This document shows, in pieces, positions 14,286-23,743 of a DNA stretch of 64,000 nucleotides (within the stretch, counting starts at the first letter, position 1; each line of letters starts with the position of its first letter). Under the pieces are notes generated by a model. The model searched no databases, was not told where the DNA came from, and saw only the letters and a program-made list of their open reading frames with translations. The DNA is from Fibrobacter sp. (GTDB taxonomy: Bacteria; Fibrobacterota; Fibrobacteria; Fibrobacterales; Fibrobacteraceae), in contig JAKSIB010000001.1 in assembly GCA_024399065.1 (NCBI GenBank), positions 186,001 to 250,000 on the forward strand, in the 5' to 3' direction. The position numbers and the translations under genes were made by a program.

Positions 14286-15410
14286 ATGGAATCACCGGTT
14301 GATATTCGAATGGCGCTTGGAACCGATATTATCGGCATGACTCTTGTGGTCGTGATGATTATCGGTAACGTCTGGCGTTTGCGCCTGAAAAACAAGGAAA
14401 GCCTGCTGCTTATCGCAATGCTTGGAACATGCTTTTCCTGCTGCTTGTCGGATCTTCTCGCTTTTGCTGCAGATGGTAGCAAGCATGAATACGCAAGGCA
14501 ATTTGTCTATTTCACCAACACATGGCTCTACGCCTCCAATTACCTTTGCGCCTACAGCTGGCTTCTTTTCCTGAGGGAACATTTCAAGATTGAAATGACC
14601 CATACCCAGAAGTGGAGCCTCCGTGTGATGAAGGTTGTATTGATTCTCATGTTGGTCATAAACCTTTTCGTGCCCTTCATCTTTAGTGTCAACGAATACA
14701 ATATTTATAGCCGCGAATTTGGTTACTGGATATACATTGCCTTTAACTACGGCATCGTGGTGAATTCCATTACGTTGTACTACAAGAACTACCGTCGCGA
14801 CGGTTCCATACGTTTCTTCCCCATTTGGCTGTACATTGTACCCATTGTCATCGCGACGGTTATTCAGTCGCTCTGGTATGGTGTTTCCCTGATGGCTCCC
14901 TGCTTTGCAGTGGCTATCGCAGGTGCGTTCAACAGCCTTCAGAACGAACGCGTCTTCAGAGACAATCTGACGGGGCTGTTCAACCGTTCCTTTCTGGATT
15001 ATGTGCTGTTCCTTTATTCCCAGCAGGGGCGTAAGGCTAGCGGCATTATGATTAGCCTTTGCGGATTTGAAAAAATCAACGAGCAATTCGGCCACGATGT
15101 TGGTGACAAGGCCCTGTGCCAGACAGCAGAAATCCTTAGGGAATCTGTGGGTAGCTGGGGTTCCATCCTCCGTTATTCCGGTGATGAATTTATTGTCATG
15201 GTGGATTCCCAACAGGATAACAACATCAGCAACTGCATTGAAAAGTTGAAAATGAACTTCGATAGGTTTAATCGTGAGGAAACGGGTGGTTATAAGCTTA
15301 TTCCTGCAATCGGTGTGAAAAAACATAGCGGTGAAAAAGAAAATGCGAACCAGTTCCTGAATGGCCTTAAGGCTAGCGTGAAAACTGATAAGCAAAGAAT
15401 TTCCCCTTGA
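14286..15410 (+). CDS. Membrane-bound GGDEF protein (probable diguanylate cyclase)
   Basis: 374 residues. The N-terminal half (about 10-225) has six or seven hydrophobic segments, like a 7TM sensor. The GGDEF domain begins at NLTGLFNRSFLDYVL (about 240) and carries the signature S298-GDEF in RYSGDEFIVMV; Ser in place of the first Gly is common in active enzymes. The expected reaction is two GTP to cyclic di-GMP. No clear RxxD inhibitory site is visible. It lies just upstream of the MerR-type gene (20 bases) and could be cotranscribed with it. The matching type of hydrolase, an HD-GYP protein, is at 59585-60739. Signal and activity are not shown by the sequence. Confidence 0.88.
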   Translation: MESPVDIRMALGTDIIGMTLVVVMIIGNVWRLRLKNKESLLLIAMLGTCFSCCLSDLLAFAADGSKHEYARQFVYFTNTWLYASNYLCAYSWLLFLREHFKIEMTHTQKWSLRVMKVVLILMLVINLFVPFIFSVNEYNIYSREFGYWIYIAFNYGIVVNSITLYYKNYRRDGSIRFFPIWLYIVPIVIATVIQSLWYGVSLMAPCFAVAIAGAFNSLQNERVFRDNLTGLFNRSFLDYVLFLYSQQGRKASGIMISLCGFEKINEQFGHDVGDKALCQTAEILRESVGSWGSILRYSGDEFIVMVDSQQDNNISNCIEKLKMNFDRFNREETGGYKLIPAIGVKKHSGEKENANQFLNGLKASVKTDKQRISP

Positions 15411-15429
15411 CCTAGAGAAAAGGGATACC

Positions 15430-15684
15430 ATAACAAATAACGCTCGTGATGAAAAAAGCAAGGGTTTTAGCATTGGCGAAGTTGTAAAGCAAACCGGACT
15501 TTCTGCCCACACTCTGTGCTATTACGAAAAGGAAGGCCTGCTTCCTTTTGTCACCAAGAACAGTTCGGGACTTCGTGTTTATACTACAACCGATTTGCGA
15601 TGGCTCAGCATGATTGAATGCCTCAAGAAAAAGCTCTTCGACTCTCCCGACGACTTTGACAAGAAGGTTCAAGAAGTGGGTTAG
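15430..15684 (+). CDS. Short MerR-family regulator, apparent ATA start
   Basis: Only 84 residues. The DNA-binding half of a MerR protein is clear: FSIGEVVKQTGLSAHTLCYY, EKEGLLPFVTKNSSGLRVY and DLRWLSMIECLKK. The family's long dimerisation helix and effector domain are missing; the protein stops after FDSPDDFDKKVQEVG. No ATG/GTG/TTG precedes the motif in frame; ATA at 15430 follows AAAAGGG by 5 bases and gives MTNNARDEKSKGFSIGE. It may be a natural minimal regulator, or a decayed gene that lost its ATG. The stop overlaps the convergent SUMF1-flavodoxin gene by 4 bases. Two MerR-type promoters at the nearby flavodoxin genes make it the likely regulator of this island (inference). Confidence 0.75.
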   Translation: MTNNARDEKSKGFSIGEVVKQTGLSAHTLCYYEKEGLLPFVTKNSSGLRVYTTTDLRWLSMIECLKKKLFDSPDDFDKKVQEVG

Positions 15685-17105
15685 AGACCGTTTCTTTTAA
15701 GCCAGTTATCTATACGAGAATTCAAATCTCTTCCGCCGCTGTAGTAAAATTCAAAGGGAAATCCCACATAGCTTTTCTGCAGTTTCTTGTTCAGATCAGA
15801 AACGCTGTCGCCGTAACGGGTGCCTCCATGGCTTGAAAAACTGGCCACGGTCTTGCCTTTGAAATCGTAACTTTCCAGGAAAGTGAATACAGGCATGGGA
15901 ATGGTCGCCCACCAGGTAGGATACCCCAGCAGGACAACATCGTACTTGGACATGTCCTTGATTTTAGTCTTGAGGGGCGGGCGGGCATCGCTGTTCAAAT
16001 CCTTCTGGGTAACTTCGTAAATGCCACCGCGGTAAGGCTTCGCCATTTCGATTTCCACAAGGTCAACATTTCCGTCGCCGTACTTCTTTTTCATCTGCTT
16101 TGAAATGTATTCCGCGGCACTCTGGGTGTTGCCGGAATAACTGAAGTAGGCTACGAGAATTTTCGGATTTTTCGGAATGCTGATGACGTTGATTTCGGAA
16201 TTGAATTTTGTTTCGATGATCTCGGCGGAATTCGCGGTGCCCTTGGTGTTGTCTGCGTTGCGTGCAATTCTGAAGCCCAGGTTCTGGTCGCTATCCAACG
16301 GGTTGGTGGCAGAACGGTAGGCACTTCTCAAGTGCTTTCCGAAATCGTTGTAGGCACCGCCGCGGTTCACTCGATAAATTCCAATGCGTGGCCCTGTAGG
16401 GTTCTGCTTTTCAGCTTCGTTATATTCGCCGTAATAGTCAAAGACCCATTCGCTGACGTTGCCGTGCATATTGTACAAACCAAATGCATTGGGCTTGTAG
16501 GAATTGACTGCGACGGGCTCGTCAATGACGGAGCCGGGCACCACATTCTTGTTGGTGTGATGCATGTAGTTTTCTTCAATCAGATACGGATAGCTTCCGT
16601 AATAGTTGGCGTCTTCAACGCGGTTCCATTTTCCCGTGCTGAAAACAGTTGTAGTTCCTGCGCGGTTGGCGTATTCCCATTCCGTCTCGGTAAGTAGGCG
16701 GTAGCCATTGGCGCTGCGATTCCAGGTGACGGTTATGTCGCGGGTTTTGCCAGATTCACCACGACTGACCTTATAGGCTTCCTGCAATCCTTCGGCACGA
16801 CTTTTGACGTTGCAAAATTCAATGGCGTCGTAGTAGGTGACGTTTTGAACAGGGAGGTTTCCGCCCTTGAATGTGCTGGGATTCTTACCAGTGATTTTCT
16901 CGTAATCCTTCTGCTGGACTTCGTAGGCGTCCACATAAAAATCGCCGAGGGTAACTTGATGTTGCTTTTCGTCCAGTTGACGTTGGCGCTCCGTGGCGGG
17001 GCTTCCCATGGTAAATGTTCCGCCCTTTACAAGTACCATCTTGCTTTCTGCGAAAACAGAGATTGCAAGGCTTAAAATGCCCAAGGAAATGATTTGTCTT
17101 TTCAT
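15681..17105 (-). CDS. Exported SUMF1-like domain fused to flavodoxin
   Basis: 474 residues with a signal peptide (MKRQIISLGILSLAISVFA). Residues 24-285 form a SUMF1/FGE-type domain: MVLVKGGTFTMGS, PVQNVTYYDAIEFCN, YRLLTETEWEYANRAG, NMHGNVSEWVFDYYG and YRVNRGGAYNDFGKHLRSAY. The Cys that formylglycine-generating enzymes use near this last motif is absent (HLRSAYRS), so oxidase activity is unlikely. Residues 312-474 are a flavodoxin: VAYFSYSGNTQSA for FMN phosphate, GYPTWWATIPMPVFTFL and SFSSHGG for the isoalloxazine loops. A flavodoxin exported from the cytoplasm is unusual. It faces the MerR gene and shares the island with two other exported flavodoxins and a DUF4405 protein. Domain calls are strong; an electron-transfer role in the periplasm is inference. 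Confidence 0.9.
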   Translation of the reverse strand: MKRQIISLGILSLAISVFAESKMVLVKGGTFTMGSPATERQRQLDEKQHQVTLGDFYVDAYEVQQKDYEKITGKNPSTFKGGNLPVQNVTYYDAIEFCNVKSRAEGLQEAYKVSRGESGKTRDITVTWNRSANGYRLLTETEWEYANRAGTTTVFSTGKWNRVEDANYYGSYPYLIEENYMHHTNKNVVPGSVIDEPVAVNSYKPNAFGLYNMHGNVSEWVFDYYGEYNEAEKQNPTGPRIGIYRVNRGGAYNDFGKHLRSAYRSATNPLDSDQNLGFRIARNADNTKGTANSAEIIETKFNSEINVISIPKNPKILVAYFSYSGNTQSAAEYISKQMKKKYGDGNVDLVEIEMAKPYRGGIYEVTQKDLNSDARPPLKTKIKDMSKYDVVLLGYPTWWATIPMPVFTFLESYDFKGKTVASFSSHGGTRYGDSVSDLNKKLQKSYVGFPFEFYYSGGRDLNSRIDNWLKRNGL

Positions 17106-17396: not shown

Positions 17397-18044
17397 TTAG
17401 GATCTCTTTAGAAGTTTCATTCCTAGATGGGTAACGACGCACATGCCTGCCGAAATTCCAAGCAACTGCAGTACAGCCGCGGTGACGCTTTCTGCGGCCA
17501 TTTTCCAGCCGCCAGTCACGAACATGTACACGTAAAGTTCAGACTGTATAAATCCATAGACGCCTGCTGCAATCAGCAGCCCGTAGGCGATGTATAGCAA
17601 CACCGTTTTCCAGGCACGACTACGGCAGAGATTTTCCAGCTTGTCCAGTTTTGTATCAAGATGGAATCCCAAATGGAAAAGCATCACCATAAAGCCCCAG
17701 CAGCAACTGGCCAAGTGAACCTCTCGGGCTGTCTGCGTCGCTTTCATAGGAGACCATTCAAAAACAAGTCCGGTCATAAAGATGGAGCTAATCGCCATGG
17801 TGATCATTAGGGCGAACAAAAGCCAGTCTGTTACGTTCATGGCGATACGTCGGGCGTTCCATTTGCCCTTGCTGATGGTTCTATAGAACCAGAAGTTCAT
17901 CACGTGATGGACAATGAATAAAACGAAAAGCGAAATGCCTACGTAGCCATGACGGGTCAAGTCATGGATGGCGCCATAGCTCATGAGGTACAGAAAGCAA
18001 CTGTACATCAGAACATCAATGACAATTTTCGCAATTCGTTTCAT
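17397..18044 (-). CDS. DUF4405 membrane protein (probable b-type cytochrome)
   Basis: 215 residues with about six hydrophobic helices. The N-terminal part has DLTRHGYVGISLFVLFIVHH followed by VMNFWFY, typical of DUF4405, with His 32 and His 46/47; later helices carry REVHLASCCWGF and LFHLGFHLD. Paired His residues on neighbouring helices suggest haem binding, and published surveys associate DUF4405 with extracytosolic flavin-based electron transfer. It is encoded 24 bases downstream of the flavodoxin gene at 18069-18590 on the same strand, so it is probably cotranscribed from the MerR-type promoter. It could pass electrons between quinol and the exported flavodoxins; that link is inference. 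Confidence 0.8.
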   Translation of the reverse strand: MKRIAKIVIDVLMYSCFLYLMSYGAIHDLTRHGYVGISLFVLFIVHHVMNFWFYRTISKGKWNARRIAMNVTDWLLFALMITMAISSIFMTGLVFEWSPMKATQTAREVHLASCCWGFMVMLFHLGFHLDTKLDKLENLCRSRAWKTVLLYIAYGLLIAAGVYGFIQSELYVYMFVTGGWKMAAESVTAAVLQLLGISAGMCVVTHLGMKLLKRS

Positions 18045-18068: not shown

Positions 18069-18590
18069 TTACTTCAAGTCTCCATCTACAAACTTCTTGA
18101 TGTTCGCTTCGGAACCGTAATTGAACTCCTTTCCACCCTTGAAGATGGAACCCTTGGCAGCCTTTGCAATATCCTTACCACTGGGACCAAGTCCGCTTCC
18201 GCCACTGGTGCAGAGAGTAATCAGGTTCTTCTTTTCGAAGCTCTGGCTTTCTACAAAGGTGTACATGATCTTGGGTGCGTATCCCCACCAGATGGGGTAG
18301 GCGAGGATGACTGTATCGTAATCCTTCACGTCAATTTTGTTCTTGATGGCGGGGCGGCTCTTGGGATCGTTGCTCTCGATGGTGGAACGGGATTTCTTGT
18401 CGTGCCAATTCAAGTCTGCAGAAGTGTATGCCTGCGCAGGAACAATTTTGAACAGGTCGGCGCCAACAGCCTTGGCTGCTTTTTCGGCCATTTGCTTAGT
18501 GGTCCCGGTGGCGCTGAAATATACCACTGCGGTTTTTGCGTTTGCCATGCAGAATACTCCTAAGACAAGGGCTAAAATGACTTTTTTCAT
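18069..18590 (-). CDS. Flavodoxin with signal peptide
   Basis: 173 residues. The start at 18590 (MKKVILALVLGVFCMANA) is preferred to 18608 because AGGAT lies 8 bases upstream and it opens directly into a signal peptide. The mature part begins KTAVVYFSATGTTKQMAEKAA, with the FMN phosphate loop SATGTT; LAYPIWWGYAPKIMYTFV and LCTSGGSGLG supply the flavin-facing loops. Flavodoxins carry one or two electrons on FMN and normally stay in the cytoplasm; here export is predicted. If exported by Sec, FMN must be added outside; no Tat twin Arg is visible. It is first in a leftward unit with the DUF4405 gene and is expressed from a MerR-type promoter with a perfect 16-bp palindrome. Confidence 0.88.
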   Translation of the reverse strand: MKKVILALVLGVFCMANAKTAVVYFSATGTTKQMAEKAAKAVGADLFKIVPAQAYTSADLNWHDKKSRSTIESNDPKSRPAIKNKIDVKDYDTVILAYPIWWGYAPKIMYTFVESQSFEKKNLITLCTSGGSGLGPSGKDIAKAAKGSIFKGGKEFNYGSEANIKKFVDGDLK

Positions 18591-18637
18591 TTGAATGATC
18601 CTGACCATCGCACGGTCTAATAAATATGTCTACATAA

Positions 18638-18668
18638 AATATAAAATCTAGAGCTAGCTCTAGGTCAA
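18638..18668 (-). promoter_or_regulatory. MerR-type promoter with 16-bp palindrome, leftward flavodoxin unit
   Basis: On the minus strand TTGACC (18668-18663) and TATATT (18643-18638) are separated by 19 bases, the stretched spacing that MerR proteins correct by twisting DNA. The perfect palindrome CTAGAGCTAGCTCTAG (18648-18663) is centred 7.5 bases after the last base of the -35 box. Confidence 0.75.
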
Positions 18669-18700
18669 GGGACTGATGAAATTTTTTGAAAATAAAACTC

Positions 18701-18731
18701 TTGACTTCAAGTTCACTCTAAGTGTTATATT
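18701..18731 (+). promoter_or_regulatory. MerR-type promoter, rightward flavodoxin
   Basis: TTGACT (18701-18706) and TATATT (18726-18731) are separated by 19 bases. An imperfect dyad of arms ACTTCAAGT and ACTCTAAGT lies at 18704-18723. Its centre is 7.5 bases from the -35 box, exactly as in the divergent partner promoter. Confidence 0.75.
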
Positions 18732-18750: not shown

Positions 18751-19311
18751 ATGAAAAGGTTTATCCTCATCCTTCTAACAATCCTTATGGGGGCTGCCAT
18801 GGCTGCTGAATCCAAGAAACTGGTCATCTATTATTCTCGTGCCGACGAAAATTATAGCGTGGGCTATATCAAGAAGGGCAACACTGAAATCGTTGCTGAA
18901 ATCATCGCCGCAAAAACAGGCGCAACGTTATTGAAGGTGGAACCCGCCAAGGAATACCCGAAGGTTTACGATGAGTGCATTGCGGTTGCAAAAAAGGAAT
19001 TGGCAAATGACGCCCGTCCGGAAATCAAACCGGTCAGCATCAACCCCGAAGAATTCGATGAAATCTACGTCGGCTATCCGGTGTGGTGGGGCGAGATGCC
19101 TATGCCTATGTTTACCTTCTTTGAAAAGTACAATTTGAAGGGGAAGACCATCCATCCCTTCGTCACTCATGAAGGCAGCGGCCTCAGCGGTGTCACCCGA
19201 CTTAAGAAAGTGACCGGCGCCAAAGTGACTATGGGTCTTGCCATTTATGGTCATGAAGCTCAAAACGAAAAAGCAAAGGCGGAAAAAGACGTGGAAAAGT
19301 GGTTGAAGTGA
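18751..19311 (+). CDS. Flavodoxin-4-type protein with signal peptide
   Basis: 186 residues. ATG at 18751 is chosen because AGAGG lies just upstream and the preceding -10 box ends at 18731, leaving a leader of about 13 nt; an upstream start at 18676 would lie within the promoter. The signal peptide is MKRFILILLTILMGAAMA. The mature protein begins ESKKLVIYYSRADENY, with GNTEIVAEIIA closing the FMN phosphate site, then VGYPVWWGEMPMPMFTFFEKY and FVTHEGSGLSG. It is transcribed away from the other flavodoxin unit, and both promoters have the same MerR geometry, so the two are probably induced together. Confidence 0.88.
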   Translation: MKRFILILLTILMGAAMAAESKKLVIYYSRADENYSVGYIKKGNTEIVAEIIAAKTGATLLKVEPAKEYPKVYDECIAVAKKELANDARPEIKPVSINPEEFDEIYVGYPVWWGEMPMPMFTFFEKYNLKGKTIHPFVTHEGSGLSGVTRLKKVTGAKVTMGLAIYGHEAQNEKAKAEKDVEKWLK

Positions 19312-21768: not shown

Positions 21769-21901
21769 TGATTGTCGCCCTGTTACTCTTGCGTAATATC
21801 ACAGTGGGTACAGTTGTAAACGGCAACAGCCCAAAAAAACGAGAATTGTTGTAAATTTGAGGTATATTAAATTTGTGAAAATTTAACTAGGGAGTATGAG
21901 A

Positions 21902-23743
21902 ATGTTTTCCAAATTTGGTCTTAAGCAATTTGCCCCTCTGGCAATTTCTGCCTTGACTCTTGTTAGCTCTGCCTTTGCAGCTAACGCTTATATTAACCAG
22001 ATTGGCTATCGCCCTGCCGACAACAAGGAATTTGTTGTTGATGGCGTCAACGGCGGCAATGTTGAAATTGTGGACCAGACTGGTCAAACGGTTCTTATGG
22101 TTACCCCGTCGGCAGCCACTTCTTGGGATGCTTTCAATCAGCAGGTGCAGTTGGTTGACTTCTCTGACCTCAAGACTCCGGGAACATACTCTATCAAGGT
22201 CGGTGGCCAGGTTGTCCGTAACGACTTGAAGATTGCTGACAAGACTTTTGAAGATGTGGCAAAGGCTTCTCTTAAGTGGTTCTACTACCAGCGTGCCTCC
22301 ATGGCTTTGGACCAGACTTATGCAGGTCAGTGGAAGCGTTCTGCTGGTCATACCAATGGAACCGTGGAAAAACATCAGTCCGCAGGTTCGGGCACTATTA
22401 CTTCTACCAAGGGTTGGTACGATGCCGGTGACTATGGCCGTTATATCGTAAACTCCGGTATTACCACCTACACCTTGCTTTCCCTGTATGAACATTATCC
22501 GGATTACTTCAACGCCCTCAAGTGGAACATTCCTGCAGAAGGCGCCCTTCCGGATCTTTTGGCCGAAATCAAGTACAATCTTGATTGGATGCTTACCATG
22601 CAGGATACCGATGGTGGTGTTTTCCATAAGTTGACCACTCTCGGCTTCCCGGGTGACGTTATGCCTGCCGGTGATAAGGATAAGCTTTATGTCATTGGTA
22701 AGGGCACTGCTGCTACCTTCGACTTCGCTGCAGTCATGGCAACAGCCGCTCGTGTCTACAAGCCTTTCGATGCAACCTTTGCTGCAACATGCTTGTCTGC
22801 TGCAAGGAACGCCTACACTTGGGGTTCCAAGAATCCCAACATAACCTTTAGCAATCCGAATGGTGTGTCTACTGGTGAATATGGTGACTCCTGGCTTGTG
22901 GATGAAAAGGCTTTTGCAAGTACCGAATTGTTCATTACCACTGGCGAAGCTACCTATAAGTCTGGCGAACCGACCATGAATATTCCTAGCTGGGCAGACG
23001 TATCTGGTCTCGCTACTTATGACATGGCCATTCATGCTACAGAATTTGGTGATGTTGGCCATGCTGCCCATGATAGCGTTGTTTGGGTTGCCGATGATTT
23101 CGTCAATCGCACCGCTTCTGGTTTCGGTGTTGTTATGCAGAAGAGCGACTTCGTCTGGGGTTCCAACGCAGTGGCTGCAAACCAGGGCGTATGGCTTCTC
23201 CACGCATATTACCTGACTGGCGAAGAAATGTACTACACCGCTGCTAAGAAGGTTCTTGACTACCTCCTCGGTAAGAACCCGCTGAATATGTCCTTCTTGA
23301 CTGGTTACGGTACAAAGTCTCCCAGAATGCCTCATCATCGTCCCAGTACCGCAGACAACATTTCTGATCCGGTGCCGGGTATGCTAGTTGGTGGCCCTCA
23401 GCCCGGTGGTGAAGACATCGGTTCTGAAACTTGGGAATGCAAGGACTACAGAACTGGTCAGGCAGCAACCTCCTATACCGACAACCGTTGCAGCTACGCA
23501 ACCAACGAAGTTGCTATTAACTGGAATGCTCCCCTTGCATACCTCGCTGGTGCCTTGGAAGCTTTGAACGCAGGCCATAAGCCGTCCTTTGCAATCGCAA
23601 GCCATGGTGACGCCATCAAGCCCAGCTTTGCAACTCGCAGGGCTTCTTCCGAAAATCAGGTCCGCCTCCGCTTTGCAGATCAGAAGGTCTACATTGAAAA
23701 GGCTGGCAAGCGTTTCGACTTGAAGGGCAACCACCTCAAGTAA
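21902..23743 (+). CDS. GH9 endoglucanase (cellulase)
   Basis: 613 residues from the second of two near ATGs: GGGAG (21890-21894) is 7 bases from 21902 but only 1 from 21896. The signal peptide ends LVSSAFA. Residues 27-110 form the N-terminal Ig-like domain found before GH9 modules (NAYINQIGYRPADNKEFVV). The GH9 barrel follows, with the catalytic base pair in D174-AGD177, the His motif RMPHHRPS (His 478/479) and the proton donor E536 in NEVAINWNAP. All key residues are present, so an active beta-1,4-glucanase is expected. No CBM is seen. The last 30 residues are basic (VRLRFADQKVYIEKAGKRFDL), again like a surface or secretion tail. Transcribed alone between two terminators. Confidence 0.95.
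   Translation: MFSKFGLKQFAPLAISALTLVSSAFAANAYINQIGYRPADNKEFVVDGVNGGNVEIVDQTGQTVLMVTPSAATSWDAFNQQVQLVDFSDLKTPGTYSIKVGGQVVRNDLKIADKTFEDVAKASLKWFYYQRASMALDQTYAGQWKRSAGHTNGTVEKHQSAGSGTITSTKGWYDAGDYGRYIVNSGITTYTLLSLYEHYPDYFNALKWNIPAEGALPDLLAEIKYNLDWMLTMQDTDGGVFHKLTTLGFPGDVMPAGDKDKLYVIGKGTAATFDFAAVMATAARVYKPFDATFAATCLSAARNAYTWGSKNPNITFSNPNGVSTGEYGDSWLVDEKAFASTELFITTGEATYKSGEPTMNIPSWADVSGLATYDMAIHATEFGDVGHAAHDSVVWVADDFVNRTASGFGVVMQKSDFVWGSNAVAANQGVWLLHAYYLTGEEMYYTAAKKVLDYLLGKNPLNMSFLTGYGTKSPRMPHHRPSTADNISDPVPGMLVGGPQPGGEDIGSETWECKDYRTGQAATSYTDNRCSYATNEVAINWNAPLAYLAGALEALNAGHKPSFAIASHGDAIKPSFATRRASSENQVRLRFADQKVYIEKAGKRFDLKGNHLK

Follow-up and report, generated by a model that had tools for sequence, protein, structure and literature searches.

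The window analyzed here, a 64,000-nucleotide stretch of Fibrobacter sp. DNA, carries genes for exported flavodoxins that are read away from each other from a short intergenic region. The left unit begins with a gene for an exported flavodoxin (Flavodoxin_4; 18069..18608, − strand), translation of which likely starts at 18590 with the ATG that opens the signal peptide MKKVILALVLGVFCMANA. It continues with a gene for a DUF4405 membrane protein (17397..18044, −) and, as a probable third member, with a gene whose product combines a SUMF1/FGE-like domain with an exported flavodoxin (15681..17105, −); the gap before this third gene is ~290 bp in this genome versus 42 bp in several relatives. Note that the joining of SUMF1/FGE-like and flavodoxin domains in one exported protein is itself kept in relatives. 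The gene of the right promoter encodes another exported flavodoxin (Flavodoxin_4; 18751..19311, +). Further along, an open reading frame at 21896-23743 (+) resembles, as judged by eye, an exported GH9-type cellulase glycoside hydrolase.

Both flavodoxin units are preceded by a promoter of MerR-type geometry. The left promoter (18638..18668, −) has its −35 box TTGACC at 18663-18668 and its −10 box TATATT at 18638-18643 with a 19-bp spacer between them, and reads TTGACC-TAGAGCTAGCTCTAGATTT-TATATT on the − strand, 5′ to 3′ from 18668. Its 20-bp dyad, ACCTAGAGCTAGCTCTAGAT (18646-18665, −; centre 18655.5), matches in 9 of 10 pairs and encloses the perfect palindrome CTAGAGCTAGCTCTAG. The right promoter (18701..18731, +) has the −35 box TTGACT (18701-18706), likewise a 19-bp spacer, and the −10 box TATATT (18726-18731), and reads TTGACT-TCAAGTTCACTCTAAGTGT-TATATT on the + strand, 5′ to 3′ from 18701; its dyad, ACTTCAAGTTCACTCTAAGT (18704-18723, +; centre 18713.5), matches in 7 of 10 pairs. 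In both promoters, the dyad centre falls between the 7th and 8th base past the −35 hexamer. A preliminary description of this DNA had claimed a 19-base distance between the boxes at both flavodoxin genes, a dyad centre “7.5” bases past the −35 box, and a palindrome that is perfect leftward and imperfect rightward, all of which were borne out. In classical MerR-type promoters (CueR, CadR, MerR, BmrR), the spacer measures 19-20 bp and the dyad centre lies 7 bp (CueR, CadR) or 8 bp (MerR) past the −35 box (PMC5045206, PMC9909328). The left and right promoters, each with a 19-bp spacer and a dyad inside it centred 7 bp past the −35 box, fall within this range, whereas the operator sequence differs (consensus here TTGACCTAGAGTTAACTCTAGGT).

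Within the 64-kb window, TTGAC-N20-TATATT occurred at the left and right sites only, with a shuffled expectation of 0.01. When a dyad of at least 7 of 10 pairs was added to the pattern, there were 2 sites in the window, whereas 200 shuffles averaged 0.01 and none exceeded 1, confirming that both promoters stand far above chance expectation. A half-site scan of the window with the −10 box omitted returned background only besides these two sites. A consensus sigma-70 scan with 16-18-bp spacers missed both promoters and labelled the left palindrome as terminator-like, a candidate that was rejected on conservation.

A pattern spanning the left and right sites matched six sites in the genome at 0-1 mismatch, followed by background only. 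Of the four further operators, two are on C11, one preceding LarE (C11:45439) and the other a small membrane protein gene that has two DUF362 genes after it (C11:44486); the remaining two, on C1, precede genes for an amidohydrolase (C1:124547) and for an aldo/keto reductase whose sequence carries a lipoprotein-like signal (C1:128601). Note that an initial, permissive pattern with TATAAT at its end had yielded background and one true site only. The genus consensus, taken from 38 distinct sites, is TTGACCTAGAGTTAACTCTAGGTGTTATATT, and across these sites symmetry peaks only at the centre 7 bp past the −35 box (7.9/10 pairs; at most 3.2 elsewhere). Since the differences between the left and right operators fall mainly at positions that vary across the whole set, the two are, by this comparison, variants of one motif.

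The genes behind these operators have several features of their own. Operators drive LarE in this genome (L003:6558-7470), and a LarB-like gene, recognised by an AIRC domain and by its location near LarE, lies behind an operator in G008, G058, G030, G020 and G034 (L087:1501-2260), which would place nickel-pincer cofactor genes inside the NmlR-like regulon described below. In G009, an operator precedes a CMD-cupin gene. A TAT signal was found on DUF362 by Pfam, and export signals were seen on several products by eye or Pfam; part of the response would accordingly take place beyond the cytoplasm. The amidohydrolase is broken in this genome by a repeat-flanked internal deletion and a frameshift (L079:4088-5016; G000:C1 ~124590-125520), and in G009 by another internal deletion (L145:7147-7660). 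The ATG of the aldo/keto reductase abuts the −10 box (L079:8102-8140) and that of the amidohydrolase lies ~7 bp past it (L079:4048-4090), suggesting that these mRNAs are leaderless or nearly so.

Among relatives, mostly draft genomes, the left and right promoters of the flavodoxin locus are both kept in six (G025, G009, G011, G040, G024 and G054); in G054, the left promoter precedes the DUF4405 gene, and the left flavodoxin was not found there. The right promoter is additionally present in G057, with a weaker match in G001. In alignments of relatives, the −35 box, the half sites and the −10 box stand out as footprints on both flavodoxin sides. The motif at no more than one mismatch occurs in 27 of the 61 genus genomes, and a reversed control gave 4 matches in total. 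A search of 80 genomes that accepted any spacer between 15 and 23 bp yielded 34 strict matches, and without exception they had exactly 19 bp (control, 0). Spacing, dyad position and sequence are all conserved in related genomes, strongly supporting the MerR-type control proposed in the preliminary description. Absence of such conservation in close relatives, the outcome which that description had named as counting against it, was not seen. On the other hand, the tight back-to-back layout is not shared by most relatives. The two −35 boxes are separated by an AT-rich stretch of 32 bp in this genome (18669..18700) and by 31 bp in G025, with dyad centres 58 and 57 bp apart, respectively, whereas ~650-720 bp separates the promoters in G009, G011, G040, G024 and G054, and a nitroreductase gene sits between them in G040. 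Because most relatives have this wider spacing, the tight layout is best read as derived, being a deletion product rather than a built feature.

Exactly two MerR_1 matches are present in the genome, namely a remnant in the window and a full-length protein of 154 aa (C11:45526-45987, +), hereafter C11 MerR. Its gene and LarE diverge from an intergenic region that holds an operator, 57 bp away from the gene for C11 MerR, and residues 1-57 of the protein are 86% identical to the remnant. C11 MerR matches Pfam MerR_1, MerR and MerR-DNA-bind and no further domain; like members of the NmlR/AdhR clade, it has the MerR winged helix-turn-helix and dimerisation helix with no C-terminal sensor domain, and its Cys54 corresponds to the cysteine conserved at 52-54 in that clade. 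Cys54 is present in all aligned full-length Fibrobacter copies and is the sole cysteine conserved genus-wide. The best-scoring curated family is NmlR (NCBIfam NF041849), but the score of 91.8 bits is under the cut-off of 175, so we call the protein NmlR-like and not NmlR. The best PDB matches were 5d90, 5d8c (HiNmlR with DNA) and 5e01 (E 3.6e-28 to 1.4e-26). A search of genome contigs returned one close Fibrobacter and otherwise distant Bacillota and others. In two distant Bacillota relatives of the protein, from a Lachnospiraceae bacterium and Trichococcus, a 19-bp promoter lies ~70 bp before the regulator gene.

We consider it highly probable that the left and right sites are MerR operator-promoters of one small regulon of stress-type genes, with control in trans predicted to be exerted by C11 MerR. 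The preliminary description had noted that the two operators differ in sequence and had offered either two related regulators or one tolerant regulator. The difference is most marked at motif positions 8-9 of the right site, which are CA versus the usual AG (AA in the G025 counterpart), and a second regulator, either missing through gaps in the assembly or a member of another subfamily, could serve that site. Because the assembly consists of 118 contigs and is 99.1% complete, a second regulator could be missing. However, a single full-length MerR_1 gene was found at this completeness, the left and right operators fit one motif together with four further sites, and G009 has one MerR, yet carries both flavodoxin sites and six others. 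Two regulators are therefore improbable, and one tolerant regulator is the better alternative.

Across the genus, the NmlR-like gene and the site occurred together in 21 genomes, the gene alone in 4, the site alone in 6 and neither in 30 (Fisher p=2e-7, uncorrected for kinship); the four genomes carry the NmlR-like gene or pieces of it and no site at this stringency. In G004, which is 99% complete, a one-mismatch site lies before an aldo/keto reductase gene (L158:15026-15056, G004:C4) and no MerR_1 match was found. Judging from this genome, some sites are orphans or are served by something else. A site identical to that of G004 is also present in G031, G038 and G053. Such orphan sites, together with the loss of the local MerR described below, would fit a reading in which the operators are relics and the flavodoxin promoters drift unregulated. 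This too appears unlikely, since both boxes (TTGAC and TATATT), the 19 bp between them and the half sites are kept in this genome, G025 and G054 while the surrounding intergenic bases differ, and all three genomes have the same full-length MerR at LarE.

The remnant in the window (15430..15684, +) consists of residues 1-57 joined to residues 137-154 of full-length MerR. The MerR-type gene that the preliminary description placed 3 kb from the promoters does exist as a MerR_1 stretch (window 15466-15633; Pfam, 9.7e-15), but its reading as an 84-residue protein needs an ATA start. This fragment retains most of the helix-turn-helix and the wing in frame, and it could in principle be a functional regulator of reduced length, or a fragment that binds DNA and so keeps the operators blocked. 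Against this, ATA replaces ATG and no ATG, GTG or TTG start is available, Arg20 of the TLRYYE motif is changed to Cys, and the residues between 57 and 137, a region that holds the dimerisation helix in canonical MerR proteins, are absent; MerR proteins dimerise via the alpha-5 coiled coil (PMC9938897). Upstream of the remnant, only the half operator TTGACCTAGAG (15407..15417, +) is left; the other half has been lost along with the −10 box and the start codon. At the corresponding position of G025, a complete operator still stands with its −10 box and start codon, and the bases beyond them match those found here. Different breaks affect this gene in two relatives, leaving residues ~99-154 in G025 and ~51-138 in G054. 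An intact MerR lies beside the flavodoxin genes in G009, G011, G024, G036, G040 and G057; these proteins are 65-69% identical to C11 MerR, and each gene is preceded by the same operator. The “84-residue MerR” is, from the lesions in its reading frame and operator, a gene remnant, and a role for it as the regulator is very unlikely. Finally, it is scarcely credible that the left palindrome is a terminator or another hairpin with an incidental likeness to a promoter: CTAGAGCTAGCTCTAG with its T-rich tail looks terminator-like in a pattern scan, but no gene reads into it, its TTGAC, half sites, 19-bp spacing and TATATT are conserved in relatives, and many other operators are not perfect hairpins.

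Returning to control by C11 MerR, we examined how the LarE-linked gene is distributed. In a tree, all other Fibrobacter copies, those linked to flavodoxin genes among them, group on one branch (96/100), which excludes the LarE-linked MerR of this genome, G025 and G054. DNA identity between this genome and G054 is 95-100% from inside LarE through MerR and beyond (L003:6701-9550 vs L081) and drops abruptly at ~L003:6700; the right flavodoxins of the two genomes are 92% identical as proteins. From this identity profile, the LarE-operator-MerR segment common to the two genomes is a product of recent transfer or recombination. In G009, the LarE operator is present with no adjoining MerR. The local MerR is broken in all three genomes with a LarE-linked MerR (n=3, drafts), with lesions that differ, and a LarE-linked MerR was not found in the six genomes whose local MerR is intact. 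On the simplest reading of these three draft genomes, the incoming gene, which has a near-identical DNA-binding domain, would have made the local gene dispensable, and the local operators stay intact despite the dead regulator, apparently because the paralogue covers them. We hold it about evenly balanced whether this fuller account is correct, that is, whether a recently spread LarE-linked NmlR-like gene of a separate branch now serves operators that evolved alongside a local MerR, the local gene having lost its function in three genomes through lesions that differ, and whether the regulon joins exported flavodoxins and LarE/LarB in one stress response of obligate anaerobes.

In the proposed mechanism, a dimer of the 154-aa C11 MerR would bind the dyad between the −35 and −10 boxes, and the over-long 19-bp spacer would keep the promoter nearly silent. 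MerR activation kinks and untwists DNA, and the boxes then act as if they were 17 bp apart (PMC9909328); by analogy with the family, the activated regulator would untwist the DNA so that RNA polymerase could use both boxes. Cys54 is the most likely sensor. The regulator would act in trans on six promoters, namely those of the left flavodoxin unit, the right flavodoxin, the aldo/keto reductase, the amidohydrolase, LarE, and the small membrane protein with two DUF362 proteins. The local merR once present in the flavodoxin locus has decayed, and because of this decay the flavodoxin promoters are apparently run by a regulator elsewhere in the genome. Since the targets include an aldo/keto reductase, flavodoxins, a CMD-cupin protein (G009) and LarB-like proteins (G008 and others), we suggest that the signal may be a reactive carbonyl or electrophile, or redox stress.

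The best solved relatives of C11 MerR are HiNmlR of Haemophilus influenzae (PDB 5D8C with DNA) and the related entries 5D90 and 5E01. HiNmlR controls adhC-estD (formaldehyde detoxification). HiNmlR and C11 MerR have in common the conserved Cys54 and a regulator gene divergent from the target operon, and C11 MerR, like HiNmlR-type regulators, is a MerR protein of small size in which no sensor region can be recognised (PMC9938897); it has no metal-binding or drug-binding domain, unlike CueR, CadR, MerR and BmrR. The formaldehyde response needs Cys54 of H. influenzae NmlR and Cys52 of Bacillus subtilis AdhR (YraB), which has a target of the carboxymuconolactone decarboxylase family (PMC4776306). 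AdhR resembles the present system in its conserved cysteine and in the CMD-cupin gene behind an operator in G009, but it belongs to another phylum. The targets found here, exported flavodoxins, aldo/keto reductase, LarE/LarB and DUF362, are unlike those of HiNmlR, and an adhC/adhA-type formaldehyde dehydrogenase is not among the six targets of this genome, in which respect the regulon differs from those of NmlR and AdhR. A literature search returned no MerR regulon for Fibrobacter and no report joining Fibrobacter succinogenes, MerR and flavodoxin.

Fibrobacter are major fibre degraders of herbivore guts. The set of operators described here would provide a defined MerR regulon in this genus that is open to testing, and it suggests that the functional context of exported flavodoxins, DUF362 and LarE/LarB may be carbonyl, electrophile or redox stress that is sensed through a thiol. 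It would also offer a natural example of operators that stay intact after their local regulator has died, apparently under the cover of a paralogue.
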